From Bacteroidota bacterium (lineage in GTDB: Bacteria; Bacteroidota; Bacteroidia; Chitinophagales; Chitinophagaceae): DNA of 64,000 nt. The stretch covers positions 1-64,000 of the forward strand of contig JAGWUV010000007.1 in assembly GCA_028875875.1 (NCBI GenBank), given 5' to 3'. The notes beneath the pieces were generated by a model. It made no database searches. It was not told the DNA's origin and saw only the letters and a list, made by a program, of their open reading frames with translations. Below, piece after piece: positions 1,572 to 15,756 of the stretch. Every line of letters starts with the position of its first letter. The stretch's first letter is position 1. The translations under genes were made by a program, and so were the position numbers.

Positions 1572-3251
1572 TTACAAATAAGGAGCGGTGAAGCCAAGAT
1601 TTTTTAAACCAGTTTTTACTTCCGGACAAGAAGTAAATAGATTCCACAATAACCCTGTTCTATAATTCTCTATCATTACGATCTCAGGCCCCTGGTCTAT
1701 AGCAAGGTATGAAGAGGCATACCACAAAGTATTCAGGTTAAAGGCATCAGTAAATCCGTATTGCCCCCAGATCTTATCCCCCAGTTTATAATAAAAGAAC
1801 CGTAAGGCATTCATAGATTGAACCGGTGTATATGGCAACGAAGAGATGGCCGCCGTGGGTGCAATATATCCACCATCATTAGTAGGTGAACTTGCTGTAT
1901 AACCATTCGCGATATCACTTGCCGTTAAGCCCCAGCAGGAAGTACTATAGCCATTATAACCCAAAGGATCGGCAACACAGTAATTATAATTAATCTGACT
2001 GTGTGCCACATTTTGCTGCCAGTAGTTTGCGTAAGTATCACTTAATCCGTTCGGATTGATTCCCAGGAATGAATAATGAGCAAAGAATAACGGCCCGCCC
2101 ATAGACGGCCCTAAAGGTAACGTTACACCATAATAGGCAGCACCATTTTTCATTGCACCATTCTTTGCCCAACCATTATCATACACCGCTTTTGTAATGC
2201 CATGCGTGGCAGATGAAGCTGATAACACATAAGTAATCAATGCCTCGTTCCAGCCTGTTACTGCTATACTCCATATATCGCTGGTATTGGTATATGATGG
2301 ATTGTATTGCCAGTATAAAGATTGCTGTGCACCGTTTTGTGTGAACCAATTCCACTCAACCGTATTCCACAAAGAATTAATACTGTCACGTAAGGCGGCT
2401 TCTGCAGGTGCCGTTGTATTAAAGTATTGTCTTGCACATAATAAACCTGCAACCAGATAAGAGGTTTCAACGATATCTGCACCATTGTTATTTCCAAAAG
2501 GAACTATAGCACCTGTTGTACCATTGATCCAGTGTGCAAAAGCACCATGCCAGCGCTGTGCCTTTGTTAAAAGGAAATTGGTAATAGTTGTTATTCTGTT
2601 GAGGCCATCGGTTCTTGTAATAAAGCCACGGTTTACGGCAGCTACCATACCCATAATACCAAAGCCCGTACCACCTGTAGTAACCACATCACCCGAAGTA
2701 TTTCTTTCCCTCGCCATTCCACATATAGGATGACCAAAATCCCAGAAATACTTGAACGTTTGTTGCTGCACAAGATCTAACAGGGCACTATCGGTTATTC
2801 GCGGGAATTTGTCTGTTGAATCTATTTGTGTAACAAAATGAAAATCCACACCACTTGTGAGAGAACCTCCTGATGCAGATTTTAAAGCTGTTGAAAGCGA
2901 AACAGCATAAGTAGAAAGATAGTGCAACGCTGAAGCAGGTTGAGCTACTATGGTACTATCGTTATTTTCGTAAGAAAGTGTAGTGCTAACCAGTGATCCA
3001 TAAGCATCTTTTAGTGAAAACGCTCCAGCAGTTGTTTGCCTGTTTACTTTTGAGGATAATTGTATCTTAATAACGGGGATGGCATTTATGTTGTAGATGT
3101 TTGATCCGGGGTTACTGCCATTGATAGTGTATGTTACCACAGTCATATTTTGAGGTGTAACCGGTTGGGTACTGGCATTATCAGATTTTTTACATGCCTG
3201 TAACAATAAAAAAATATACAAACACCTTATTAGATCAATACTTGTACTCAT
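1572..3251 (-). CDS. GH144-type (glycoamylase-domain) glucanase, lipoprotein
   Basis: The first 19 residues are a short lipoprotein signal (LLQAC, Cys20). An Ig-like domain (Big_5 type) spans roughly residues 40-140, and the glycoamylase-like (alpha/alpha)6 domain runs from about residue 150 to the end. Visible hallmarks are FKYFWDFGHP, GTGFGIMGM, WHGAFAHWI, SYLVAGLLCARQYF and GPEIVMIENYRTGLLW near the C-terminus. This family contains the beta-1,2-glucanase described from Chitinophaga pinensis (GH144), so an endo- or exo-acting beta-1,2-glucan enzyme is the best guess. The substrate itself is not shown by the sequence. The start codon follows the upstream FG-GAP gene by only 3 bp, so the two are surely one operon. 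Confidence 0.88.
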   Translation of the reverse strand: MSTSIDLIRCLYIFLLLQACKKSDNASTQPVTPQNMTVVTYTINGSNPGSNIYNINAIPVIKIQLSSKVNRQTTAGAFSLKDAYGSLVSTTLSYENNDSTIVAQPASALHYLSTYAVSLSTALKSASGGSLTSGVDFHFVTQIDSTDKFPRITDSALLDLVQQQTFKYFWDFGHPICGMARERNTSGDVVTTGGTGFGIMGMVAAVNRGFITRTDGLNRITTITNFLLTKAQRWHGAFAHWINGTTGAIVPFGNNNGADIVETSYLVAGLLCARQYFNTTAPAEAALRDSINSLWNTVEWNWFTQNGAQQSLYWQYNPSYTNTSDIWSIAVTGWNEALITYVLSASSATHGITKAVYDNGWAKNGAMKNGAAYYGVTLPLGPSMGGPLFFAHYSFLGINPNGLSDTYANYWQQNVAHSQINYNYCVADPLGYNGYSTSCWGLTASDIANGYTASSPTNDGGYIAPTAAISSLPYTPVQSMNALRFFYYKLGDKIWGQYGFTDAFNLNTLWYASSYLAIDQGPEIVMIENYRTGLLWNLFTSCPEVKTGLKNLGFTAPYL

Positions 3252-3254
3252 AAA

Positions 3255-6200
3255 TTATTTTACTGGTTTATAAAACTCTATTCTGCTGTTATTTTTGGCT
3301 GCGATCAGTACATCTCCGTACTTAACCGTATGAATCCATTTCAAATCTCTTACTTGTCCTTTAATGTCTATTAACGATGTATGTGTAACTGCGGTATTAT
3401 CTTTTTTACTACTTATATCAAATACAGATAGCGAAGCAGCATCATAAAAACCTTCATATGGGGGAACATCAAAAAAGTTACCGCCTGCAATGTACCTGTT
3501 CTCGTTTTTGAACTTTTGAAAAGAGAGAATGGGAGATAACTGCAGATCAAAAGGTAGTTCTTGCTTAGTAAAATTTCCTTTACCATCATTGATAAAACAG
3601 GCTGAACCCAAGGTTTCAGCTTTCAGTTCTGTATAATCCTTGAACAGATCATAGAACAGATATTGAACCGTTTTACCAGCTACTTCACGATAGGTTACAT
3701 ACGCTTTTCGTAAAACCGGCAATGCTTGTTCCAGCTCATCTTTAGGTAGAAAGGTGTACTCATTTCCGTCTATGGTATATGTCATTACCTGTTCAATGAT
3801 ACCATTGTTATCAAAATCCTTTACATATAATTTAACCGGCCCATTTTTACCTGCCCATAGTTTTGAATTATGTCCCCAGTTACCACATAAAATATCCGGA
3901 TTACCATCATTATTCACATCGGCAACAAATGCACTTTGCCACAACCCCGTAGAAGAAGGAATATCAGTTTCGCTGAATTTACCCTTATTGTTCATGTATA
4001 TTTTAACCGGCATCCACTCGCCAGCAACAATTAAATCAGGCCATCCATCCTTATTAAGATCAGTAAAAGATGCAGCGGTAACAAACCCGATATTCAGAAT
4101 ATTCATTGTGCTGTTTGGTGCTATGCTAAACTTACCTTTTCCATCATTAATATATAGGTAGGAGCTCTGCGGGATGCCAAACTTTTGCTGATCACTAAGA
4201 TGCCCAATGAATACATCCAAATCACCATCATGGTCAATATCTGCAACGGCTATACAAGATTTATTTTCATACTCCTGCTGAAAGGCATCCGCAGCTAAAG
4301 CAAAATGACCTTTCCCATCATTCATATAAAGCCTATCTGCATTTGCAATACCGTTTGCCGGCATTTCATTTCCTCCACTTACTACCCATAAGTCTAGAGC
4401 ACCATCTCCGTTGGCATCAAAGAAAGCAGCATCTACATCCTCACAAACAGCAAATTTGTTAAACAATGTGGTGTCAGACGATTTGAAAGATCCATTAGGC
4501 TGTTGAATCATCAAAGCACCCGGTTGTCCTTTTGCACCGCATACATAAAAATCTTCCAACCCATCTTTATTCACATCACCTACTGCAACCTTGGGGCCTC
4601 TTGTACTTTCCTTGTGAGGAATCAGGTATTGAACATCAAAATCATTAAAGTTATTTTCCTTATGTTTCCAGTTGCATTCTATATTATCAGTTATATTCTC
4701 CAGTTCCGGTTGTGCAGGAGGAAAGAATGTTTTATAATTAAACCCAGACATTGCATTCTTCTGCTCCACAGTTATCATTTGGTTGGCCGGAATGTTTTTT
4801 AATACCTGGTATTTCTGATCAGGCCAAACTATTAGAATACTGTCTATTGAAGTGACCTGACCTAATCCAAAATGCAGTCGAGGATCTGATGATGACTGAA
4901 AGCCTCTTGTAAGCATCATCTCTTCATACTGCATTTTACCCTTGCTAAAAACATAGGCCTTTGTACCTATACCGGTTTTATTAAAACCCTCTCCTTTAAA
5001 TGCAATCGTAAGATGATTAGTTCCTTTTGTATTGTTTTTATAAATGAATGATTTTGCATTCAGTGTATTCACAACAATATCAAGGTTACCATCATTATCA
5101 AGGTCCACATAAGCGGCACCATTATAAAAACCTTTCTTATCGGTAATACCCCAATCTTTCCCAATATCAGAAAAATTACCTTGTCCATTACCTTTAAACA
5201 TATAACAGTAAGAACTTCCTTCAGGCATTTTTTCTACGGTCATATCATCATATTGCGTAGAAGAATTCCTGTTTACCTTAGCTGCCAGATCCGATACAAA
5301 ACGAACATAATCCAAATCTACCGGACGCTTCACAATACCACTACTTATGAAAATATCTTTATTACCATCGTTATCAAAGTCGGCCATTAACGGGCACCAG
5401 CTCCAGTCTGTAGCAGAAACACCTGCTATCAACCCGATATCACTGAAAGTTTTTCCATTACCGTTATTCCTGTGTAAGCAGTTACGCGAAAATTGTGGTT
5501 GGTAACCATTGTGTGTGATCTTAAAATCGTAGATATCATTATGCTCATCACTGCCATAAGTTTTTAATGTTTTTTCGTCAGGCGGCAACATATCTACCGT
5601 AAGAATATCCAATTGCCCATCGTTGTTAAAATCAGCTATATCATTACCCATACTAAACCTTGAGTAATGATTGAAATGCTGAGCACCTTCATCAGTAAAA
5701 GTACCGTTCCCATTATTAATGTAGCAATAATCGTTTTCATGAAAGTCGTTTCCAATATAAATATCATCCCAACCATCATTATTAATATCGGCAACTGCTA
5801 ATCCTAATCCATATCCCAAACTGCTCTGGCTGATGCCTGCTTCTTTAGAAACATCAGTGAACTTACCAGTTGTGCTAACATCATTTCGCAACAAGTAATC
5901 TCCTGCATTCTTATCAAAACCTCTTCGATGACTAGTATCTACGATATTCTGATAGGGTTGCTGGGATTCATTTAATATAAAGCAATCGAGATCTCCATCA
6001 TGATCATAATCAAAGAAAACAGACTGAACTGTAAAGCCTGAAAAATCCAACCCATACTTTTTCGAACTCTCAGTAAAAGTTCCATTACCATTATTAATAA
6101 AAAGTTCGTTATGCCCTTTTAAACCAAAAGCATTATTTACAGAAGAAACGTAAATATCCAATAACCCGTCACCATTTACGTCCGCCATAGTAGCGCCCGT

Positions 6201-6539
6201 ACACCAGTCTGAGGAACCAGCTACTCCTGCCTTATCTGTAACATCTTCAAACTGAAAATTGCCTTTATTGATATACAGTTTGTTATGCCCCTTACTGTTA
6301 GCAGTAAAATAAATATCTGGTAATCCGTCATTATTAATATCTCCTGTAGCTACACCGCCACCATTATAATAATAGAGATAATACAAAATACCAAAGCCTT
6401 CCCGCTTCTCTAAGGTATTTTGGAAGTTTATATTAGTTTGAGAGGATGAAAGTGCAGTAAAAACTTTATCAGAACGCTTACAGGAAAATGCTATAGCACA
6501 GAAACAAAAGCTTACTATCCATTTTTTAACTGTATTCAT
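3255..6539 (-). CDS. FG-GAP/VCBS repeat lipoprotein with ASPIC/UnbV domain (CRTAC1-like)
   Basis: This is a large 1094-residue surface lipoprotein (signal ending FSC, Cys20). I count thirteen Ca-binding-type loops of the form D-x-[ND]-x-[DN]-G-x-x-[DE], for example DINNDGLPD, DVNGDGLLD, DYDHDGDLD and DLNKDGWPD, spread over two seven-bladed propeller-like halves. Between them, near residues 550-640, lies an ASPIC/UnbV segment with GIGTKAYVFSKGK, LHFGLG and ILIVWPDQ. Proteins of this build are common in glycan loci of soil Bacteroidota, but no enzymatic activity is established; glycan binding or a scaffold role is inference. It lies between the heptaheme cytochrome and the GH144-type enzyme, in tight operon spacing with the latter. 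Confidence 0.9.
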   Translation of the reverse strand: MNTVKKWIVSFCFCAIAFSCKRSDKVFTALSSSQTNINFQNTLEKREGFGILYYLYYYNGGGVATGDINNDGLPDIYFTANSKGHNKLYINKGNFQFEDVTDKAGVAGSSDWCTGATMADVNGDGLLDIYVSSVNNAFGLKGHNELFINNGNGTFTESSKKYGLDFSGFTVQSVFFDYDHDGDLDCFILNESQQPYQNIVDTSHRRGFDKNAGDYLLRNDVSTTGKFTDVSKEAGISQSSLGYGLGLAVADINNDGWDDIYIGNDFHENDYCYINNGNGTFTDEGAQHFNHYSRFSMGNDIADFNNDGQLDILTVDMLPPDEKTLKTYGSDEHNDIYDFKITHNGYQPQFSRNCLHRNNGNGKTFSDIGLIAGVSATDWSWCPLMADFDNDGNKDIFISSGIVKRPVDLDYVRFVSDLAAKVNRNSSTQYDDMTVEKMPEGSSYCYMFKGNGQGNFSDIGKDWGITDKKGFYNGAAYVDLDNDGNLDIVVNTLNAKSFIYKNNTKGTNHLTIAFKGEGFNKTGIGTKAYVFSKGKMQYEEMMLTRGFQSSSDPRLHFGLGQVTSIDSILIVWPDQKYQVLKNIPANQMITVEQKNAMSGFNYKTFFPPAQPELENITDNIECNWKHKENNFNDFDVQYLIPHKESTRGPKVAVGDVNKDGLEDFYVCGAKGQPGALMIQQPNGSFKSSDTTLFNKFAVCEDVDAAFFDANGDGALDLWVVSGGNEMPANGIANADRLYMNDGKGHFALAADAFQQEYENKSCIAVADIDHDGDLDVFIGHLSDQQKFGIPQSSYLYINDGKGKFSIAPNSTMNILNIGFVTAASFTDLNKDGWPDLIVAGEWMPVKIYMNNKGKFSETDIPSSTGLWQSAFVADVNNDGNPDILCGNWGHNSKLWAGKNGPVKLYVKDFDNNGIIEQVMTYTIDGNEYTFLPKDELEQALPVLRKAYVTYREVAGKTVQYLFYDLFKDYTELKAETLGSACFINDGKGNFTKQELPFDLQLSPILSFQKFKNENRYIAGGNFFDVPPYEGFYDAASLSVFDISSKKDNTAVTHTSLIDIKGQVRDLKWIHTVKYGDVLIAAKNNSRIEFYKPVK

Positions 6540-6577
6540 ATAGCCTTTTTAACGATTGATGTGAATGATGAACAGTT

Positions 6578-7822
6578 CTATCCTTTATTCTTTCTGGTTA
6601 CCAAAAATTTATGGGTCGCCTCTTTATCTATTCTTATAAAATGCGATCGCATAGATGCAGATACAGGAACATTGTTCCCCTGCAACAATACCATGATAGC
6701 TTTTGAGGGCTGCTCAGGCATATGGCAATCGATGCAATTATTTTTGATTTCCGAAATACCTTTCACCGTACATGCATACCCGTTGGTGCTATGGCAATTC
6801 TTACAGCGCTGAGAATACAATTCAGTTTTTCCGGTTTCGTTTTCATGAGCGCTATGACAACTATTACAAGTCATTTCACTCATTTTAAAACACTTACTCG
6901 CTGCCAGCATTCCATATTGATTACCGTGTACATCCATATCGGCTAAATTGGTAATTGCCGAATCCATTTTAAAATAGTTACTCAATTTATCACCAGCTTT
7001 AAAACTGAACGAGGGTTCTGTTTTCGAGAGTCTTCCTCCATGGCATAGTCTACACATCTCAAGGCTTTGTACTCTTGAGAATGTAGCCGGATTGATTATG
7101 AATTTCCCTTTTTTCTCCTGCGGGTTCTTTGTGTGAAATGCTACGTGTTCTGCGGCAGGCCCATGGCATTTCTCACAACTCACACCGTAAATAATATTCT
7201 GTGTTGAAAATTTTTCAGGAAACGCATTGATACTGGATAACGATTGAAAATAAGTACTATGGCATTCCAAACACCTGGTTGTAATAGGTCGTTTAAAGGT
7301 AATTCTATTGGAATATCCCGGGCTGTTCGTCCATTGATCTAAAGATGTAAAATAAGTAAGGGGCAATTGCATCAAATATCCGTCATTCCAGTATAAGAAG
7401 GTTTGCCCTCTTTTGCCGGACCCTACGGTTATATCAATGGGTTGTGCAACTTTAGCAATGCCGTTTACATATTCTGTTTGATAGTATGTATCATTTTTCT
7501 TCTCCACTTTTACAGTATACTGGTCACTATAATGAAACTCATTCTTCCCTTCTTCAATACTTCCCTTGATATTCTTAGCATCGGCTTTACGGGATGTTTG
7601 AAAATGTGCAGTATGCATGAATGAGTTGACAATATCTTTATGACAGCCCATGCAACTAGCTGTACCCGCATAACTACTGAAAGCAGCCGGTGTGATTAAT
7701 GGTTGATTTTGCTGAGGTTGATGGGGCTGATTATTACTAGTGCAGGTTACAAACAAAAAAACAGAAAGGATAACAAAAATGAATACCCCAATTGATTTTT
7801 TGTATGTGATCCTATTGAACAT
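6578..7822 (-). CDS. Heptaheme c-type cytochrome lipoprotein (cytochrome c554-like)
   Basis: The protein has a lipoprotein signal (FVTC, Cys27), a Gln/Pro/Asn-rich linker to about residue 45, and then seven CxxCH heme-binding motifs: CMGCH, CLECH, CEKCH, CRLCH, CNSCH, CKNCH and CIDCH. A heme-free insert of about 120 residues with beta-strand character separates the first and second motifs. This spacing resembles the cytochrome c554/NrfB-like multiheme family. It should be a periplasm- or surface-facing electron carrier. It begins a block downstream of the SusCD terminator and precedes the FG-GAP gene by 38 bp. Electron donor and acceptor are not evident from the neighbourhood, and a role in glycan use is not established. 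Confidence 0.9.
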   Translation of the reverse strand: MFNRITYKKSIGVFIFVILSVFLFVTCTSNNQPHQPQQNQPLITPAAFSSYAGTASCMGCHKDIVNSFMHTAHFQTSRKADAKNIKGSIEEGKNEFHYSDQYTVKVEKKNDTYYQTEYVNGIAKVAQPIDITVGSGKRGQTFLYWNDGYLMQLPLTYFTSLDQWTNSPGYSNRITFKRPITTRCLECHSTYFQSLSSINAFPEKFSTQNIIYGVSCEKCHGPAAEHVAFHTKNPQEKKGKFIINPATFSRVQSLEMCRLCHGGRLSKTEPSFSFKAGDKLSNYFKMDSAITNLADMDVHGNQYGMLAASKCFKMSEMTCNSCHSAHENETGKTELYSQRCKNCHSTNGYACTVKGISEIKNNCIDCHMPEQPSKAIMVLLQGNNVPVSASMRSHFIRIDKEATHKFLVTRKNKG

Positions 7823-7869: not shown

Positions 7870-7899
7870 AAAGGGCTGAACCTTTACATTCAGCCCTTT
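7870..7899 (-). terminator. Rho-independent terminator after the SusC-SusD-LamG unit
   Basis: A perfect 11-bp stem (AAAGGGCTGAA with TTCAGCCCTTT) encloses an 8-base loop. On the minus strand it is followed by TTTTTG. It sits 18 bp past the LamG stop and 47 bp before the cytochrome start, so the downstream cytochrome block likely depends on partial read-through or its own promoter. The stem is followed by a short T-run on both strands and could act in either direction. Confidence 0.8.
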
Positions 7900-7917: not shown

Positions 7918-8760
7918 TTATTGTTTGTTGGCATAAAGTGCTGCCACTTCTGCAGCAGAGAGTGCTTTGCTGTATAACCTGAATTGGTCTAAAGCACCAT
8001 CCCAGGATTGCCCCCAGCCTAAATCTTTAATACCTCTATTGCCACCGATATCAAAGCCTGTAGCCTTGGTAGCATCCATATTTGCACCACCATGAGAGCC
8101 CCAGCTTTGTGTATAACTGTTAGCTACACCATCTACATATAAAGTCATTACAGAAGTAGTAGCATCATAAACAAAAGCTATATGGTGCCAGTTATTATCC
8201 ATAATTCCTTTAATACGATTGTTGCCTGTCCACTGAAACCAGTTATCATTCATATTGGCATCAACAACATCCATTTTAATAATAGCTGAGTCATTTACTG
8301 TTCCCCAATCGAATAAACCGAACATAGATGTATTTGCCCAGTATTTATTAGAAGAAGGAATATTAAAGAAGAAGGAAGCGTTACCCTGTGGTGCACCGTT
8401 ACGCTTTTCCCAACAGGCAATAGTAAAGCTTTGCGCTGTTGATATAAAATCATTTGCACCAGCATATTTGATAACTTTTACACCATCACCCTGTACAGCA
8501 TGACCCGAAATACCGGTGATTGATGTGAATGGATTATCTGCCGGAAAGTTTGCCCTGATACTATCTACTCCGTTCATCAATGGATTAGAAGTAGTTCCAT
8601 CGAAAGCAACATAAAACTTTAGTGGGCCACCGGGAGGATTGGCATCTTTAACATAGTTGCCCAATGCAGGCCTGTCCATTTTCTGACATCCGCTTATTCC
8701 TATAACTGCTATCACGGCAGAAAGAAGAACTGCTTTAGTTGACATATATTTTTTAAACAT
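7918..8760 (-). CDS. LamG/concanavalin A-like domain lipoprotein (third Sus gene)
   Basis: A 280-residue lipoprotein (ISGC, Cys25) with one Laminin_G_3-type jelly-roll domain from about residue 65 to the end. Typical features are FTIACWEKRNG, NNWHHIAFVYD, MTLYVDGV and the closing ALDQFRLYSKALSAAEVAALY, the classic LamG ending. It is third after SusC and SusD, the position where SusE/F-like glycan-binding surface proteins are usually encoded. A role in holding the polysaccharide at the cell surface is therefore inferred. No catalytic residues were recognised. Confidence 0.88.
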   Translation of the reverse strand: MFKKYMSTKAVLLSAVIAVIGISGCQKMDRPALGNYVKDANPPGGPLKFYVAFDGTTSNPLMNGVDSIRANFPADNPFTSITGISGHAVQGDGVKVIKYAGANDFISTAQSFTIACWEKRNGAPQGNASFFFNIPSSNKYWANTSMFGLFDWGTVNDSAIIKMDVVDANMNDNWFQWTGNNRIKGIMDNNWHHIAFVYDATTSVMTLYVDGVANSYTQSWGSHGGANMDATKATGFDIGGNRGIKDLGWGQSWDGALDQFRLYSKALSAAEVAALYANKQ

Positions 8761-8796: not shown

Positions 8797-10368
8797 TTAC
8801 CATAAAGGATTTTGCTTTAATACACCGCCTGATAAATCGATTGCCTTTTGCGGAATCGGATAATACTGGCATCTTGGTGTATAGCCTAACGGTGCTAATA
8901 CTGTTGGCGCATCACCCCATCTTACTAAATCATAAAAACGATATCCTTCCATTGCAAATTCCCATCGGCGTTCATCTTTGATTGCCTGGCGCATTTGAGC
9001 CTGATTAGAGAATGCTATGTGCGGAAGTACAGAACTGTTTCCATTTCTGGCCCTCGCTCTTACCATTTCAAGATATTTTTCTGCAGTGGCGCCATCGCCT
9101 AATTCATTAGATGCTTCTGCTAGCATCAACAACACATCTGCATAGCGAAGTATTCTGTGGTTGATCCAGTCTGCACCACCACTTCCATTGATTTGGCCGG
9201 TGTATTGACGCATGGCAGGATCTGAATATACTTTCTTGTTCCAGTAAGGCTGATCCAAAGAACCTGAAGATCCCGGAGAGGCTGCGTTATACGGAGGCAA
9301 TGTAGCACCATAACCACCTTGTGCCGGACCACCATCAAATTGGCCTGAGTAAAGGATTGTCATTGATTTACGAGGATCAGAGTTATCCCATGCACTTACC
9401 AGGTTCTGTGTAGGTGTGTTCCATCCCCAACCTAAATTCCAGGAAACATCAGCTCCGCCCTGTCTTACATTCTGGCTGGTTCCCCATTGTGAGCCGTTCC
9501 AGTTTGTACCATTGGCACCTACTAAAGACTGCATTTCAAAAATTGATTCTGGACCATTTTTACCGGCTCCATTCAATCCATCTTTCCATATATCGGTAAA
9601 GTTGGTACTAAGAGAATATTGGCCTGAATTAATTACAGCATTACATAATGTAACCACTTTGGCCCATTGCTGCCTGAACATGTAAGTTTGAGCCCATAGT
9701 GTGTTAGCAGCACCACTGGTTAATCTTCCGGGATAGCGGTTAGTGCCTCCTACATTCCAGTTCAATGGTAACAATTTTGATGCAGAATCAAGGTCCCTGT
9801 CAATTTGTGCATAAATATCTGTTACTGTAGATTTAGCTTTGATACCATCTGCAGCACTGGTATAATAATAGTTGATTAATGGTACTTCACCATAGGCTTT
9901 CACCAGTTCAAAGAAAGAGTAAGCCCTGAAGAAATGTGCCTCACCTACATTTCGTAAAGAGGCATCATCAGTAACCTTTAATGAATCAGCCCAGTGTAAT
10001 TCTTTGTTACAAAGGTTGATCATATAATAGTGATCGTTCCAGTAGGTATTGGTGGCCCAATCATCTTTAGTATACTGGAATGTTTCAAACTCTGCATTGA
10101 TCTCTGCACCATCAGTTAAGCTACTTCCTTTTTGTGCATCATCATCACGGATACTGTTAAAGTCTATCCAGGGTAAAGTAGAAAAGCCTGCATATGCTCT
10201 TAAAGTATTATAAAGGCCAAGGCTTTGTGATTCGAGTGCACCCTGGTTAAGGTCATTGAGCGTTGCGGTTAATGGTTTACGATCCAGGAATTTGCTACAT
10301 CCTGATCCTGCTATCACAATGGCAACCAACATTAGCAAGCTGCCATAAATATTTTTATACGATTTCAT
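8797..10368 (-). CDS. susD: RagB/SusD family nutrient-uptake outer membrane lipoprotein
   Basis: A SusD homologue of about 523 residues: a lipoprotein signal (SGC, Cys24) followed by SKFLDRKPL, then helical TPR-like repeats, with WADVLLMLAEA-type sequence (RYADVLLMLAEASNELG) and the C-terminal RRWEFAMEGYRFYDLVRWGD and YPIPQKAIDL signature. It caps the SusC barrel and captures oligosaccharide. I chose the ATG at 10368 over an in-frame TTG two codons upstream because the signal peptide MKSYKN begins there. It lies 21 bp after SusC. Confidence 0.96.
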   Translation of the reverse strand: MKSYKNIYGSLLMLVAIVIAGSGCSKFLDRKPLTATLNDLNQGALESQSLGLYNTLRAYAGFSTLPWIDFNSIRDDDAQKGSSLTDGAEINAEFETFQYTKDDWATNTYWNDHYYMINLCNKELHWADSLKVTDDASLRNVGEAHFFRAYSFFELVKAYGEVPLINYYYTSAADGIKAKSTVTDIYAQIDRDLDSASKLLPLNWNVGGTNRYPGRLTSGAANTLWAQTYMFRQQWAKVVTLCNAVINSGQYSLSTNFTDIWKDGLNGAGKNGPESIFEMQSLVGANGTNWNGSQWGTSQNVRQGGADVSWNLGWGWNTPTQNLVSAWDNSDPRKSMTILYSGQFDGGPAQGGYGATLPPYNAASPGSSGSLDQPYWNKKVYSDPAMRQYTGQINGSGGADWINHRILRYADVLLMLAEASNELGDGATAEKYLEMVRARARNGNSSVLPHIAFSNQAQMRQAIKDERRWEFAMEGYRFYDLVRWGDAPTVLAPLGYTPRCQYYPIPQKAIDLSGGVLKQNPLW

Positions 10369-10395
10369 ATACAATAATTCGTTTTAAGAATATTA

Positions 10396-13300
10396 TTAAA
10401 AAGTAACATTTAACCCTACTGTGGTAATCATTGGAATAGCACCACCACCATTGTCATAACCAAAAGCAGTAGCATCTCCACCATACTCAGGTGAATAACC
10501 TAAGTTGTGTTTCCAGGTTTTCAGGTTTTGAACATTTGCAAATATTCTAAGAGCGGAAATCTTATATCTTGATAAAAACTTCTCATCTACAGCGTATCCT
10601 AACTGAATGTTACGGATTCTGAAGTAGCTTCCATCTTCAATATTATAAGTAGAACCATTGTAGTTGAACCTGTCGGCCTGACTGATAATTGGTTCCCAGT
10701 TAGATGTTCCTGCACCATGCCACCTGTTCATTTTAAATGCAGGATAGTTTACCCTTTGGAAAGGAGATTCAAGTGAACCCCATGTTCTAAACACATCATT
10801 ACCATATACGCCTCCCAGATCAACACCTAAACTGATTCTCTTATAAGTTAAGTTCACAGAAGTTCCGTAAATGAATTTAGGAGTTGGGTTACCAATTACA
10901 GTTCTGTCATCGGCAGTAATCACACCATCTTTATTTACATCCCTGAATTTGAAATCACCAGGTCTGTAAGAACCAATAGAAGAAGCTACAGGAGAGGCTA
11001 ATATATCTGCATAAGACTGGTATAAGCCATCTACAACATATCCATAGAATGAACCAATAGGTTGGCCCACCATAGTACGGCTTTCGGCACTACCATTATT
11101 CATAAAGCTTCTTATCAACACACCTGTAGGAAGATCTTTGGCAAGACTTAACACTTCATTTTTCATGAAGGTGATGTTACCATTAACGCTTAAAGTAAAA
11201 TCTTTATTTAAATTTTGAGTCCATGTAGCAGATAATTCCTCACCCCAGTTCCTTAAGCTACCACCATTGATCAATTCGTTGGGCAAACCGATGGAAGATC
11301 TGTCAACATAAGTCATCAGGTTATTGGTAACCTTGTTATAATAGTTAGCCTCAAAATGTAAACGGTTTTGGAAGGCATTTAATTCGATACCAATTTCTGA
11401 AGCATTCACAGTTTCCCATTTTAAGTCTGGGTTAGCTATGTAAGCCGGTTGTGCTGCTGCGAAAATATTGGTTCCGAAAATAGCATTGATACCTGTTTGC
11501 AAATTGGGGTATGCAGGATAGTTAATAGGTGTTCCATCCAGCATACTTGATGTTTGGTTACCCAATACACCCACAGAACCTTTCAACTTTAAGAAATCGA
11601 AGATCTTCTGATTTTGCATGAAGTCTTCCTTGGTAATCTCCCAGGCAGCACCCGCAGCCCAGAATTGCTGGTGCTGGTGGTTAGGTAACCTTGAAGAAGC
11701 ATCATCTCTTAAAGAAGCATTCAAATAATATTTACCCTTATAGTTATACAATACCCTTCCTAAAACAGAAACTGTACTGTATTCACTTTGAGAAGAAACT
11801 GTATTGGTTGGATCAACCACACCAAATCCTGAACTCACATACCAGAACCTCTTATCATTAGGAATGGGTAAGCTAGCAGCATCAGTGCCCTGTTTAACCA
11901 TTACCTGCCTGTTGAAGTTTCCAAAGTAATAAGTAGTGAAACCTGCTGTTGCTGTTAAATTATGACCACCGGAAAAAGATTTCTTATAAGTAAGAATATA
12001 ATCCTGTTGGAATTTTCTCCAGTCGTTATCATTCTCTGTTAAACTGGTTTGGTTCCTGATTAATGTTGGGTTGTTAGATAATGGATCGTAGTAATAATAC
12101 AACGGGGCATAAGAACGAACGTTGGTGTTACTCATATCACCATACCATGTAGCCCTAAAATTAAGGTTCTTTGTAAGATTGATATCAGTATACACACTTC
12201 CTACATACCTGTACTCAACATTAATTGTTTTATCCCACTCATTCTCCAAAATAAGTAAGGGATTTACTACACCTGAATTTTGTAAAGCAGCATCTAAACC
12301 GGAATAAATATTTGCGTTTAAACTATCGCCACCGTAAGGATTCTGAACACGGAATTGTTTTGGACTTGCAGATACCTGCGGCATTACTTTACGTGCTGCA
12401 TCCAATACCCAGGTTGCGTTGTAAGGGTTATTGGTACGGGAGGTATTGAAGTTCACACCCAGCTTAATAGATTTTGAAACTTTCAGTTCATCACTCAAAG
12501 AAAGTAATACTTTATCAAGCTGTTCATGCTTAATAATTCCCTGGTCCCAGATATAGCTTAAACCAAAATTAAACCTGTTTTTTTCAGTGGAGCTTGAAAC
12601 GCTTAAACTACTGTTACTGAAATTACCGGTTCTTGTAACAGCATCAATCCAATCTGTATTGGCATTTAAAGCAGAATAATCTGGCGTTGGTACATTATTA
12701 TTGGCGTTTTCTTCAGCGAACAATGTATTGAACTGAGAAGCGTTTGCCATTTTGATTTTATCAACCAAAGTTTTAAAGCCGTAGGATGAGCTAAAGTTGA
12801 TAACTGTTTTACCCGCTTTCGCTTTTTTAGTTGTGATGGCAATTACACCTGTGGCACCCTTTACACCAAAGATGGCAAGGGAGGAAGGATCCTTTAATAT
12901 TTCAATCGATTCGATATCGTTTGGATTCAGGTAATCTATGTTATCATTAAAAATTCCATCTACAACATACAGTGGGTGTACCTGTCCTATACTAACGGTA
13001 CCACGTATACGAATATCAGGTGCCTGACCTGGTGTTCCATTATTCACTACATACAAACCAGCCACTTTACTTTGCAATGAAGCAATAGGATTGGCATTAG
13101 GTTTATCAGCTACCTCTTTTCCATCAACTTTTACAATGGAACCCGTTAAATCTCTTTTAGTGGCAGTACCATAACCAATTACTACTACCTGGTCTAACAC
13201 CTGGGTTGAAGGTTGAAGTCTAATGGCTAACAGTTTTTGTCCTTCCAACCGGATCTCCTGCGATTCAAAACCAACCATAGAAACAACCAAGGTAGCATTG

Positions 13301-13812
13301 TCTGGCGCAGTAATGGTAAAATTACCGTTGGCATCTGTAGCTGTTCCTACCTTTGAACCTTTAACAAGTATTGAAGCGCCTACTAAAGGTTCGCCGGCGG
13401 CATTGGTTACTTTTCCGCTTACTTTAACATCAGTAATGATATTGTCTTTCGAAGAAAGAACAATAAGGTTATCATTTAACACTTTGTAAACCAGGTTTGT
13501 GCCTGCAAAAAGCCTGTTGAGCACATCGGTAACATAAGCATTCTCAACATTTACTTCCACTTTTTGATTAGCCAGGGATATGGCATCATCATTATACAAA
13601 AAGCGGCAATTGCTTTTTTTCTCTATCTGAAATAATACTTTCTTAAGTTCAACTGCCTGTAGCTTAAGTGTTACTTTAGATTGAGATAGCCCCTTAGCAG
13701 ATACCTGCATCAATGAAATGAATAAGAGAGCAATCGTAAGTTTCATAACAAGCAATACTTTAAATAATCCGGACCTTCTTTTCCGGGCAATCGCTAGATT
13801 GGTTTTTTTCAT
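10396..13812 (-). CDS. susC: SusC/RagA family TonB-dependent outer membrane transporter
   Basis: An 1138-residue TonB-dependent receptor. It has a long signal region (to about residue 44), an STN (secretin/TonB N-terminal) domain at about 55-105, a carboxypeptidase-regulatory-like beta-sandwich at about 125-215, a plug domain with the SusC signature (GYGTATKRDLTGS, then RIRGTVSIG and VVDGIF), and a 22-strand barrel ending in VGLNVTF. The STN domain marks the subclass that signals to a FecR anti-sigma factor, which matches the FecR/ECF pair immediately upstream. It imports the oligosaccharide released by the surface enzymes. Confidence 0.97.
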   Translation of the reverse strand: MKKTNLAIARKRRSGLFKVLLVMKLTIALLFISLMQVSAKGLSQSKVTLKLQAVELKKVLFQIEKKSNCRFLYNDDAISLANQKVEVNVENAYVTDVLNRLFAGTNLVYKVLNDNLIVLSSKDNIITDVKVSGKVTNAAGEPLVGASILVKGSKVGTATDANGNFTITAPDNATLVVSMVGFESQEIRLEGQKLLAIRLQPSTQVLDQVVVIGYGTATKRDLTGSIVKVDGKEVADKPNANPIASLQSKVAGLYVVNNGTPGQAPDIRIRGTVSIGQVHPLYVVDGIFNDNIDYLNPNDIESIEILKDPSSLAIFGVKGATGVIAITTKKAKAGKTVINFSSSYGFKTLVDKIKMANASQFNTLFAEENANNNVPTPDYSALNANTDWIDAVTRTGNFSNSSLSVSSSTEKNRFNFGLSYIWDQGIIKHEQLDKVLLSLSDELKVSKSIKLGVNFNTSRTNNPYNATWVLDAARKVMPQVSASPKQFRVQNPYGGDSLNANIYSGLDAALQNSGVVNPLLILENEWDKTINVEYRYVGSVYTDINLTKNLNFRATWYGDMSNTNVRSYAPLYYYYDPLSNNPTLIRNQTSLTENDNDWRKFQQDYILTYKKSFSGGHNLTATAGFTTYYFGNFNRQVMVKQGTDAASLPIPNDKRFWYVSSGFGVVDPTNTVSSQSEYSTVSVLGRVLYNYKGKYYLNASLRDDASSRLPNHQHQQFWAAGAAWEITKEDFMQNQKIFDFLKLKGSVGVLGNQTSSMLDGTPINYPAYPNLQTGINAIFGTNIFAAAQPAYIANPDLKWETVNASEIGIELNAFQNRLHFEANYYNKVTNNLMTYVDRSSIGLPNELINGGSLRNWGEELSATWTQNLNKDFTLSVNGNITFMKNEVLSLAKDLPTGVLIRSFMNNGSAESRTMVGQPIGSFYGYVVDGLYQSYADILASPVASSIGSYRPGDFKFRDVNKDGVITADDRTVIGNPTPKFIYGTSVNLTYKRISLGVDLGGVYGNDVFRTWGSLESPFQRVNYPAFKMNRWHGAGTSNWEPIISQADRFNYNGSTYNIEDGSYFRIRNIQLGYAVDEKFLSRYKISALRIFANVQNLKTWKHNLGYSPEYGGDATAFGYDNGGGAIPMITTVGLNVTF

Positions 13813-13968: not shown

Positions 13969-15117
13969 TTATTTGGTGATTGTAATATTGTTTTTACTAA
14001 TTACATATTTAAAGTCGGTAGTCAATTCAAGGGCATCTAAGGCCTGCGTTATATTTTCCTTTTCAAATGCTCCTGTAAGGTGTTCCTTCTTCAAATTTTC
14101 ATTGGCAATATTTATGGTAACACCGTACCACCTTTCCATTTTCAGCGCTACTTCTTCAAAAGTTTCGCCTCTGAATACTAGTTTATTTTCTACCCATGAG
14201 GTTTCAACCACAGAATTATCTGCCGGCTGATGCGTAATATATCCTATGGTAACCATTGGCTCAGCCAAAATAGATTCTTCTGTTTTTTTCTTTCCGGCAT
14301 TAGGTTTCCTTTCTGTAATTACTTCGTCATTAATCAGCGTGAGCTTCTCATTAGGTTTCAAATATATTTTCTCCGTTGGCCTGTCTTTCAGTGTAACTTC
14401 AATACTTCCGCGTATCAATGATGTTTCTATTTTCTTTTCATCAGGATAACATTTCACATTGAAAGCCGTACCCAACACCCGTATGTCCATTTTAGAAGTA
14501 TGTATTACAAATGGTTTTTGTGGGTTTTTAGTTACATCAAAGAAAGCCTCCCCGGTTAGCGCAACTTCTCTTAAAGCATTTCCAAACGTGTTAGGATAAC
14601 TTAACTTGCTTCCTGCATTCAACCATACTTTTGTACCATCAGGTAATGTTAGCCTTGTTTTAGAGCCGTTACGGGTTATTACTTCACTTCTTTGTACCGG
14701 TACTACCTTAGTTTCTTTAGCGGGTAATTGGTTAAGATATATACCAGCCATGATCATAATACCCGTAACCGCTGCTGCAATAGCCATTCTCTTTTTTGTG
14801 AATGAAAAGATGGAAGTTTTTTTCTTAGGTTCAGTAACGATGCTTACCAGGTGATCTTCTTCAGTGTTATTAAGGCCTTGCATTTGAATTCCAATTTCCT
14901 GCATCCGCCGTAGCAGCTCTTTGTACTTCATTTCACTGTGTTGCATACGCTGCTGCATACCGGGCTTCCACAGAGCTTCCATTATTTCAAGTGAATGTGC
15001 TTCATCGGTTTGAGATCTAAGCAATTGCTCCAATTCAATCAACTCTGCCTCAGAAGCTTCATTAGAAAGCTTCCTTGCCATCAATTGCCACACTCGTTCG
15101 CTTGCATTGTATTCCAT
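13969..15117 (-). CDS. FecR family anti-sigma factor
   Basis: A 382-residue inner-membrane signal transducer. The N-terminal cytoplasmic part (about 1-105) binds the sigma factor, a single membrane segment lies at about 110-130 (AAAVTGIMIMAGIYL), a FecR beta domain follows (LPDGTKVWLNAGSKLSYP, then VLGTAFNV), and a C-terminal DUF4974/STN-like domain (LVFRGETFEEVALKMERWYGV) touches the SusC STN domain. The ATG at 15117 is preferred over a TTG two codons upstream. It lies directly between the ECF sigma gene and susC, the standard layout of substrate-sensing trans-envelope switches. Confidence 0.95.
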   Translation of the reverse strand: MEYNASERVWQLMARKLSNEASEAELIELEQLLRSQTDEAHSLEIMEALWKPGMQQRMQHSEMKYKELLRRMQEIGIQMQGLNNTEEDHLVSIVTEPKKKTSIFSFTKKRMAIAAAVTGIMIMAGIYLNQLPAKETKVVPVQRSEVITRNGSKTRLTLPDGTKVWLNAGSKLSYPNTFGNALREVALTGEAFFDVTKNPQKPFVIHTSKMDIRVLGTAFNVKCYPDEKKIETSLIRGSIEVTLKDRPTEKIYLKPNEKLTLINDEVITERKPNAGKKKTEESILAEPMVTIGYITHQPADNSVVETSWVENKLVFRGETFEEVALKMERWYGVTINIANENLKKEHLTGAFEKENITQALDALELTTDFKYVISKNNITITK

Positions 15118-15177
15118 AATCAAAGTGTTATGGACACAGCAAAGCCGATAATCTACTAAAGGGGATGAAAATATTTT

Positions 15178-15756
15178 TTAGTATGCAGGCTTCGATCCCT
15201 TGGTAAGATCAAAACTTATGGCGCCTGCAATTTTCTTTACAGCAATGGCCATCTGGTTATCAATCGTTTTAACCGATATGTTCAGCAATTGCGCAATTTC
15301 GTTGTATTTTAAGCCGTCTTCTTTGGCTAATTTAAATATGAGTTTACAGCGGGGAGGCAACATTTTAATCGCAGTATTGATCCTATTCACCACTTCCGAT
15401 GTAATTAATAATTGCTCGGGGTTGTATTGTATTGCATCTGTTTCAATATTTATTTCATCTATCGAAATAACATCTTTCCGGTAATGCCTTGCTAAATAAT
15501 TAATGGCAGTATTTTTTACACTGATGTATAAATACAATTTCAGGTTATCAATTTTCTCCAGGTTCTCCCTATACTGCCAGATTTTAATAAATACATCCGA
15601 AACAATTTCTTCTGCGAGCTCCTTGTTTTTTATGATGGATTGTGCAAACTGTAGCATCTTGGGCATAAAAGCCATATAAAGCTTACCAAAAGCATGCTCG
15701 CTGTTATTGGCGCAAATATTTTGTTGAAGTAGTTTTATTTCTTCTGGAGCAAGCAT
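15178..15756 (-). CDS. ECF RNA polymerase sigma-70 factor (Bacteroidetes family)
   Basis: A 192-residue ECF sigma factor. Region 2 is seen in AEEIVSDVFIKIWQYRENL and NLKLYLYISVKNTAINYLA; region 4 in LPPRCKLIFKLAKEDGLKYNEIA and LNISVKTIDNQMAIAVKKI. There is no extra C-terminal domain. It is encoded 60 bp upstream of the FecR gene, which should hold it inactive until SusC senses substrate. It should direct transcription of susC, susD and linked genes. A promoter-like 16-mer upstream of it recurs upstream of the porin gene starting at 52665. Confidence 0.95.
   Translation of the reverse strand: MLAPEEIKLLQQNICANNSEHAFGKLYMAFMPKMLQFAQSIIKNKELAEEIVSDVFIKIWQYRENLEKIDNLKLYLYISVKNTAINYLARHYRKDVISIDEINIETDAIQYNPEQLLITSEVVNRINTAIKMLPPRCKLIFKLAKEDGLKYNEIAQLLNISVKTIDNQMAIAVKKIAGAISFDLTKGSKPAY

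Follow-up and report, generated by a model that had tools for sequence, protein, structure and literature searches.

A heptaheme cytochrome in a SusCD-type operon

The stretch of DNA analysed here, 64,000 nucleotides from a Bacteroidota bacterium of the family Chitinophagaceae (contig JAGWUV010000007.1; hereafter the window), carries on its minus strand a single operon encoding, in this order, an extracytoplasmic function (ECF) sigma factor, FecR, SusC, SusD, a LamG lipoprotein, a heptaheme c-type cytochrome, an FG-GAP/ASPIC protein and hydrolases of the GH144 and GH30 types. The adjoining SusC/SusD pair and the glycan-degrading enzymes make it a polysaccharide utilization locus (PUL), and PULs are usually described as hydrolysis-plus-import systems. 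Our main subject is the cytochrome (6578..7822, minus strand; hereafter CYT), a lipoprotein of 414 aa recognized from its open reading frame (ORF), Pfam matches, alignments and predicted model, together with the CRTAC1-like FG-GAP/ASPIC lipoprotein of 1094 aa encoded immediately after it (3255..6539, minus strand; Pfam and predicted model). We consider it very probable that CYT is a genuine member of PULs, a real but patchy component. A preliminary description of this DNA had reported the heptaheme lipoprotein, the FG-GAP/ASPIC, GH144 and GH30 features and a nearly overlapping spacing of the FG-GAP and GH144-type genes; ORFs and Pfam searches agree with it in features and coordinates, and the spacing amounts to 3 bp.

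Conservation of the operon and association with PULs

The comparison was based on 99 genomes, i.e. the window's own and 98 relatives, with relatives of CYT taken at E <= 0.001. Some relative, long paralogues included, is carried by 53 of the 99 genomes, and the short type to which CYT itself belongs is represented by 22 copies in 17 genomes (window counted; neighbourhoods of up to 20 kb). In 13 of these 17 genomes, each with a different genus code of the window's family, the best short copy is found in the same operon, and the order SusC-SusD-LamG-CYT-FGGAP-GH144/GH30 thus recurs in 13 genera. Eighty loci were added from titled GTDB records; after removal of four duplicates and of L109, for which gene calling gave no CYT, 97 loci remained. 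These 80 were the top hits of a query in which 13 operon members were included, so the operon clade is over-represented among them.

Of the 97 loci, 53 have SusC or SusD at a distance of at most five genes from CYT, and in the same range 46 have a labelled glycoside hydrolase and 35 an FG-GAP gene, while the long paralogue from the same 99 genomes, which served as a control, gave 0/25 for each of the three (Fisher p of 9e-8, 1e-6 and 1e-4, respectively, with relatedness ignored). Gene calls came from a simple script that takes the longest ORF. Labels were assigned through BLAST links within families, one or two members of each having been compared with Pfam, so that hydrolases outside the labelled families are counted as 'other'; the control stretches were 6.6-19.9 kb long, some ending at contig ends, and all their genes were counted. 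The association is retained in loci outside the operon clade, with SusC/D in 31/70, a hydrolase in 23/70 and FG-GAP in 14/70 (p of 1e-5, 3e-4 and, for FG-GAP, only 0.018, again with relatedness ignored). The suggestion of the preliminary description that the cytochrome belongs with glycan genes, rather than occurring mostly away from them, is borne out by these counts. The pairing of CYT with FG-GAP is less strict than it implies: in 62 of the 97 loci there is no FG-GAP gene within five genes of CYT, one operon (L075) has CYT without FG-GAP and three related PULs, described below, have FG-GAP and GH144 without CYT.

In even draws of genomes, with a cut-off of E <= 1e-90, a short CYT was detected in 9 of 198 Bacteroidota genomes and in 14 of 395 genomes of the class. 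SusC/SusD is located within five genes of CYT in 13 of 17 even-draw loci, a count composed of 10/14 in the draw itself plus G000, G004 and G029; L204, whose short SusC match was taken as spurious, was left out. Three of the four loci without Sus genes (L198, L204, L205) share the locus of the named Flavobacterium records, in which CYT occupies one conserved position outside any PUL (L128, L143, L144, L148, with L198, L204 and L205 similar), beside what we take to be a transporter-like and a RecJ-like gene. Four of the 97 rows were dropped for their length before tree construction and residue counts, and the resulting tree, built from the 93 short copies left, shows 18 or more changes of the Sus label, gains and losses not being separated. 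Some CYT relatives (L123, L133, L140) come from records labelled as Betaproteobacteria or Acidobacteria metagenome-assembled genomes (MAGs), and transfer or misbinning is possible there.

The LamG lipoprotein adjoins CYT in 24 of the 97 loci. CYTs of the LamG operons group in one clade of 27 rows, with a support of 98 in the SH-aLRT test, which also includes L080 and L076/L081, near which no LamG was seen. In 21 of the 22 LamG-type operons with a contig view FG-GAP follows or faces CYT, L075 being the exception, and in Ginsengibacter (L083) CYT is inverted in place within the operon. A gene for FG-GAP of the operon type (>=57% identity) is present in 17 of the 99 genomes, in 13 of them next to CYT. 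Genomes G008, G034 and G051 possess a sigma-FecR-SusCD-LamG-FGGAP-GH144 PUL without CYT, with GH30 beside FG-GAP in G008 and G034, and no relative of CYT was found anywhere in these three genomes at E <= 0.001; in G055 the FG-GAP gene is located alongside SusCD and a GH32. Since PULs that otherwise match lack it, CYT is an auxiliary, not an essential, PUL component.

Heme motifs and candidate ligands

CYT scores above the cut-off for both Cytochrome_C7 and Cytochrome_C554 of Pfam. Its seven CxxCH motifs (residues 57-61, 184-188, 216-220, 257-261, 319-323, 340-344 and 363-367) are invariant in 22/22, 74/74 and 93/93 relatives of three sets that include the window, and therefore are not a product of chance; cytochrome assembly genes are present. 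His73, His226, His299, His326, His394 and Cys311 are likewise invariant in 74/74 CYT sequences. The Thr that appears at 299 in 4 of 93 short rows is due to an alignment shift, as two printed rows have the His one column earlier.

The long heptaheme paralogues of Chitinophagales (L066-L070, L166-L185) comprise 613-671 aa and exhibit a C-terminal extension, presumably of the TPR type; a syntenic neighbourhood is common to some of them (L167, L180). They share with CYT the seven hemes and, in 25/25 sequences, His226, His326, His394 and Cys311, but all 25 have Met instead of His at positions 73 and 299 and, as shown above, none is encoded near SusCD, FG-GAP or labelled hydrolases. Because the His/Met exchange affects exactly these two positions, they look like axial ligands. 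Five of the hemes of CYT would accordingly have a distal His ligand, and Cys311 may either ligate a further heme or line an open site. With six candidate distal ligands for seven hemes, one heme would be left open, and the simplest candidate is heme 2 (184-188). Potentials of His/Met hemes are higher than those of bis-His hemes, so the PUL-type CYT would be expected to work at a lower potential than the long paralogue.

Predicted fold and relationship to known multiheme cytochromes

The AlphaFold2 model of CYT, based on 74 sequences, has a mean predicted local distance difference test score (pLDDT) of 90.1. The best fold match is OcwA (6i5b; Z 18.1 over 304 of 414 residues, rmsd 3.9), followed by the undecaheme cytochrome of Carboxydothermus (Z 12.9), MccA (4rkm; Z 10.7 over 282 residues) and NrfA (Z about 6). 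Foldseek places the same three at the top, with MccA reaching no better than E 0.004; the Foldseek/VIA rows that rank lower than the multiheme cytochromes (neuraminidases, clathrin etc.) were treated as chance matches. The sequence of CYT also matches OcwA, MccA and c554, including a c554-like run of hemes 1-4 with CExCHGP..H at heme 3. The predicted model thus shares the fold of the OcwA/MccA/NrfA/c554 superfamily over most of the protein, with Z-scores far above those of unrelated rows.

In the passages available from the description of OcwA, its hemes 1-4 are matched to those of c554, with open sites at hemes 2 and 5, and MccA is said to correspond to OcwA hemes 1-4 and 6-9, without heme 5, to have its active site at heme 2, and to share the extra beta-sheet domain of OcwA (PMC6703420). 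The best mapping makes the CYT motifs the probable equivalents of OcwA hemes 1, 2, 3, 4, 6, 7 and 8, although one HMMER stretch would instead place a CYT motif at OcwA heme 5. The strands predicted between hemes 1 and 2 of CYT (77-166) may correspond to the extra beta-sheet domain. OcwA of Thermincola potens has nine hemes, while CYT has seven, without equivalents of hemes 5 and 9; OcwA ends in a long three-helix bundle, while the C-terminus of CYT is short, 400-413 being the one helix beyond residue 347 to exceed four residues; moreover, CYT differs in its invariant Cys311 and in its occurrence in PULs of Bacteroidota rather than in a Gram-positive metal reducer. Compared with MccA, an octaheme heme-copper sulfite reductase, CYT additionally lacks heme 9. 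The copper of MccA is bound by two Cys residues, while CYT has one invariant free Cys (311), with at most a possible correspondence to these. Judging by its predicted model, CYT is a PUL-associated heptaheme subfamily of the OcwA/MccA-like fold.

The FG-GAP/ASPIC partner

Pfam detects PF13517 in 10 stretches of the FG-GAP protein, flanking an UnbV_ASPIC domain on both sides, and no cofactor site was recognized in Pfam. Its model (mean pLDDT 80) has murine CRTAC1 as the best PDB match (9etn; E 4.7e-27, target TM 0.74), and with FG-GAP repeats, an ASPIC/UnbV domain and a CRTAC1-like predicted fold the protein belongs to the CRTAC1/ASPIC type. It is better conserved within the operon than CYT, with 61-79% versus 44-57% identity to the window among 12 relatives. 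The two genes also adjoin with no SusCD in view, in Rubripirellula (L141) and in an Acidobacteria MAG (L140). The window genome has another locus (L061, G000:C54) in which three tandem FG-GAP genes of about 1110 aa follow SusD.

The link between FG-GAP and c-type heme recurs in Mucilaginibacter-like loci that hold an FG-GAP protein with one CxxCH. In eight loci (L100, L105, L132, L137, L199, L206, L207, L208) the arrangement SusC-SusD-FGGAP-VHPO, in which VHPO is haloperoxidase-like, precedes a further FG-GAP gene, whose product has just one CxxCH, and faces CYT; a GH2 gene is located nearby in L100, L105 and L199, and several of the loci are Mucilaginibacter-like. These loci possibly represent a halogen- or peroxide-linked redox PUL. 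The literature passages that we examined state no bacterial function for FG-GAP/ASPIC proteins, and the CYT operon provides a concrete setting for this widespread group.

Hydrolases and likely substrate

The gene at 1572..3251 (minus strand) encodes a putative glucanase lipoprotein of 559 aa with an N-terminal Big_5 domain and PF10091 (Glycoamylase), with a strong PDB match to an endo-beta-1,2-glucanase (5gzh, E 4.7e-131); we take its family to be GH144, as in the preliminary description, and it is the single PF10091 gene in the available genome of the window. The last gene before the contig end (113..1555, minus strand; Pfam and PDB match) encodes a beta-1,6-glucanase-like GH30 lipoprotein of 480 aa. 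Its best PDB match is 5ngk, and it reaches 381.9 bits of the 700 needed against the BT3312-type endo-beta-1,6-glucanase equivalog NF053856, which makes it similar only. Hydrolases adjoining CYT in other PULs belong to GH30, GH5, GH16, GH3 and GH2, which would point to beta-glucans in general, the substrate being judged by family only.

Position 1 of the window is base 1 of a 105 kb contig in a genome of 3.5 Mb, and beyond GH30 the contig continues for only 112 bases. Several related operons extend past this point with more GH144 genes and genes of sugar metabolism. As the window begins at contig base 1 and GH30 ends at 113, the operon may be truncated, with more genes possible downstream of GH30. 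Extended GH144 operons were observed in L194 (G038) and L186 (G021), which contain Gfo/Idh/MocA, short-chain dehydrogenase-like, ROK kinase-like, SIS, MetE-like and lactamase-fold genes; in addition, L194 has a GMC gene and L186 one of the glucosamine-isomerase family. This looks like an unusual sugar pathway. In L074, L085, L152, L190 and L151, genes for endonuclease/exonuclease/phosphatase-fold proteins, type I phosphodiesterases and GDSL esterases are found in or shortly after GH144/GH30 operons. Periplasmic glucans of Gram-negative bacteria are branched and bear phosphoglycerol, and the phosphodiesterase- and esterase-type neighbours might remove substituents from such glucans. The combination of GH144, GH30 and phosphodiesterase-type genes (L074, L085, L152, L190) would suit periplasmic glucans or fungal glucans.

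Regulatory genes, transcription signals and cellular location

The remaining genes of the operon, all on the minus strand and assigned with Pfam, encode the ECF sigma factor (15178..15756), the FecR-type anti-sigma factor (13969..15123), the SusC TonB-dependent transporter (10396..13812), SusD (8797..10374) and the LamG (PF13385) lipoprotein (7918..8760), which in view of its neighbours is in the position of a surface glycan-binding protein. The ECF sigma factor and FecR, together with the STN domain of SusC, constitute the regulator of the PUL. From SusC on, the intergenic gaps amount to 21, 36, 95, 38 (between CYT and FG-GAP), 3 (between FG-GAP and GH144) and 16 bp.

In the LamG-CYT gap our hairpin scan (loops of up to 10) revealed a terminator-like hairpin running into a T run (7870..7899, minus strand). 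Such hairpins are present in this gap in 11 of 23 operons, against a rate of 1.1% in the control, for which only the LamG-CYT gaps were used, with their bases simply shuffled. Two hairpins were found in SusD-LamG gaps and none between CYT and the next gene, where the gaps are shorter (0-80 bp) and the comparison is therefore uneven. A separate terminator scan did not list the LamG-CYT hairpin of the window, a sigma-70 scan of the operon gave no excess of promoters or terminators, and the -33/-7 promoter consensus of Bacteroidetes occurs 0 times on the minus strand of the operon against 0.84 expected. With a hairpin ahead of CYT and none detected in the gap that follows it, the pattern suggests two modules, SusC-SusD-LamG and CYT-FGGAP-hydrolases, the latter probably transcribed by read-through or from its own promoter, and hence suggests that the transport and enzyme modules may be differentially expressed. 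The preliminary description held that all these genes are probably co-expressed; for CYT, FG-GAP and the hydrolases the hairpin pattern supports this expectation, while co-expression with SusCD would have to be qualified.

Both CYT and the FG-GAP protein of the window have a lipobox-like N-terminus when inspected by eye, and a crude finder detected a lipobox-like Cys in 85 of 93 CYTs. With the same kind of finder, K/R at +2/+3 after the lipobox was seen in 22/22 SusD, 22/23 LamG and 13/22 FG-GAP proteins, but in only 1/24 CYTs; acidic residues at +2 to +6 were seen in 22, 12, 9 and 11 members of the same sets (SusD, LamG, FG-GAP and CYT, respectively). This hints weakly that CYT might not be exported to the surface like SusD and LamG, and might be located on the periplasmic face.

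Possible roles of the cytochrome

The reading that we favour, with a probability of roughly one third, is that CYT serves a SusCD-type operon for beta-1,2/beta-1,6-linked glucans as a dedicated redox component, which would accept electrons. CYT would be an outer-membrane lipoprotein facing the periplasm, where glucan oligosaccharides yielded by GH144 and GH30 would be oxidized by glycoside dehydrogenases of the GMC type, whose genes would lie at other sites of the genome or in a downstream part of the operon; CYT would take the released electrons and hand them towards the aerobic respiratory chain, with the FG-GAP/ASPIC propeller protein acting as a binding or docking partner. This mechanism is favoured because GMC and/or Gfo/Idh/MocA genes are found in extended CYT-positive operons (GMC oxidoreductase in L194 of G038 and in L073; Gfo/Idh/MocA in G038, in L186 of G021 and in L082). 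In the window genome itself, contig C45 encodes GMC and Gluconate_2-dh3, some 5 kb from the gene of a 3-keto-disaccharide hydrolase, and contig C70 encodes a GMC in a split frame together with Gluconate_2-dh3; a GMC gene of this genome spans two overlapping frames (L195:10117-11840), possibly due to a sequencing error or to decay. These GMC/Gluconate_2-dh3 modules may be LacA-like. In the parts of the LacABC study available to us, this periplasmic glycoside 3-dehydrogenase is required for lactose use in Caulobacter, and a putative LacABC matters for the use of several glycosides by a Pedobacter (PMC9007349); periplasmic oxidation is a known part of sugar use in this phylum. LacABC has GMC and Gluconate_2-dh3 in one operon, while the window operon is without them as far as the contig goes. 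Nor is CYT a small cytochrome of the LacB type.

Gluconate_2-dh3 is present in 17/17 CYT-positive genomes that were searched. Several observations, however, speak against electron acceptance from such dehydrogenases. Gluconate_2-dh3 was also found in 9 of 13 hand-chosen CYT-negative genomes, which leaves a weak p of 0.026; the window operon, possibly cut by the contig end, encodes no oxidoreductase; no sugar dehydrogenase appears among the annotated recurrent neighbour families of CYT in other PULs, whose neighbours were scanned in part; and GMC and/or Gfo genes occur in the sister PULs of G008, G051 and G034, which lack CYT. A rule by which the GMC dehydrogenase travels with CYT was rejected on account of these last three genomes. 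Moreover, the closest folds of CYT are reductases (OcwA, MccA, NrfA), and a mere carrier would presumably need no open heme. A substrate-reducing role is nearly as likely as electron acceptance. In such a role, which we regard as a serious if tentative alternative, the six ligated hemes would feed the open heme 2, at which a small oxidant (nitrite, NO, hydroxylamine, peroxide or a sulfur oxyanion) met during feeding on fungal or bacterial cell material would be reduced, and CYT would be co-induced with the PUL for protection or as an electron sink. The closeness in fold to OcwA, the undecaheme cytochrome, MccA sulfite reductase and NrfA, and the six conserved distal-ligand candidates for seven hemes, with the invariant Cys311 among them, are in its favour; yet the ligand count that makes heme 2 a candidate open site comes from sequence conservation, and a detoxifying enzyme leaves unexplained why CYT accompanies SusCD and hydrolases of beta-glucans and not stress genes.

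The top fold match is a cell-surface terminal reductase and CYT is a predicted lipoprotein, so CYT could also export electrons in the manner of OcwA, to extracellular quinones, flavins or iron, which would allow sugar oxidation to continue at low oxygen. We find this rather doubtful, since no porin-cytochrome conduit was recognized among the scanned neighbours (no search was aimed at conduits), the lipobox of CYT is not followed by a SusD-like export signature, and the hosts are, as we assume, aerobic. A supply of electrons for oxidative attack on the glycan, a possibility raised in the preliminary description, would make FG-GAP or some other protein the oxidase and appears very improbable. 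Haloperoxidase-like genes do occur near CYT in 7 of the 97 loci, five of which have them between CYT and FG-GAP, and in 4 of 14 even-draw loci, as judged from PAP2 in L132 and VCPO_2nd, slightly below the cut-off, in L049; but there is no haloperoxidase in the window operon, no lytic polysaccharide monooxygenase or copper oxidase among the part of the neighbour proteins that was scanned, and the FG-GAP protein shows no cofactor site in Pfam. A gene for a PhyH-family dioxygenase was noticed after the operon in L044. The other roles raised in the preliminary description, service to a redox enzyme or as an electron sink, may apply. Finally, the association with PULs might be incidental, with CYT hitch-hiking in SusCD-rich regions, as could be argued from its patchy spread in the even draws, from the 44 of 97 copies without SusC/D within five genes, from the shared non-PUL locus of the Flavobacterium copies and from the inverted CYT of Ginsengibacter. 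The constant place beside LamG in 24 operons, the absence of any such association of the paralogue (0/25) and the repeated shifts of the Sus label on the tree render this improbable.

Conclusions

Multiheme cytochromes, ASPIC/UnbV proteins, CRTAC1 or haloperoxidases were not described in a PUL setting among the matches listed from PubMed Central full text, and the word 'cytochrome' is absent from the main text of PMC10449523 and PMC11497827. In the passages of PMC12175321 available to us cytochromes and PULs are handled apart, and those of PMC11495043 report secreted multiheme cytochromes in Bacteroidota MAGs with no link to PULs. A further related case, as far as the passages available from PMC5615132 go, is the Planctomycete-specific cytochrome c (PSCyt), in which cytochrome c is joined to carbohydrate-binding domains, with unknown function. 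PSCyt differs from CYT in its other domains and other phyla, in being a fusion rather than a set of operon partners, and in the lack of SusCD.

The finding is more systematic than the window alone could show, the function of CYT being read from sequence and predicted structure. As CYT is kept at one position across 13 genera, while the paralogue has neither the link to PULs nor the two His ligands, our results suggest a redox step, previously unrecognized, that was selected together with the use of these beta-glucans. The CYT system offers a defined gene and, in the long paralogue, a clear control. It is doubtful, but worth considering, that the short heptaheme family represents a new class of catalytic PUL auxiliary enzymes, acting together with FG-GAP/ASPIC proteins, through a site influenced by Cys311, on glucan-derived sugars or on a glycan-linked substituent. 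If this is true, redox catalysis would be a general, overlooked part of beta-glucan use in soil Bacteroidota.

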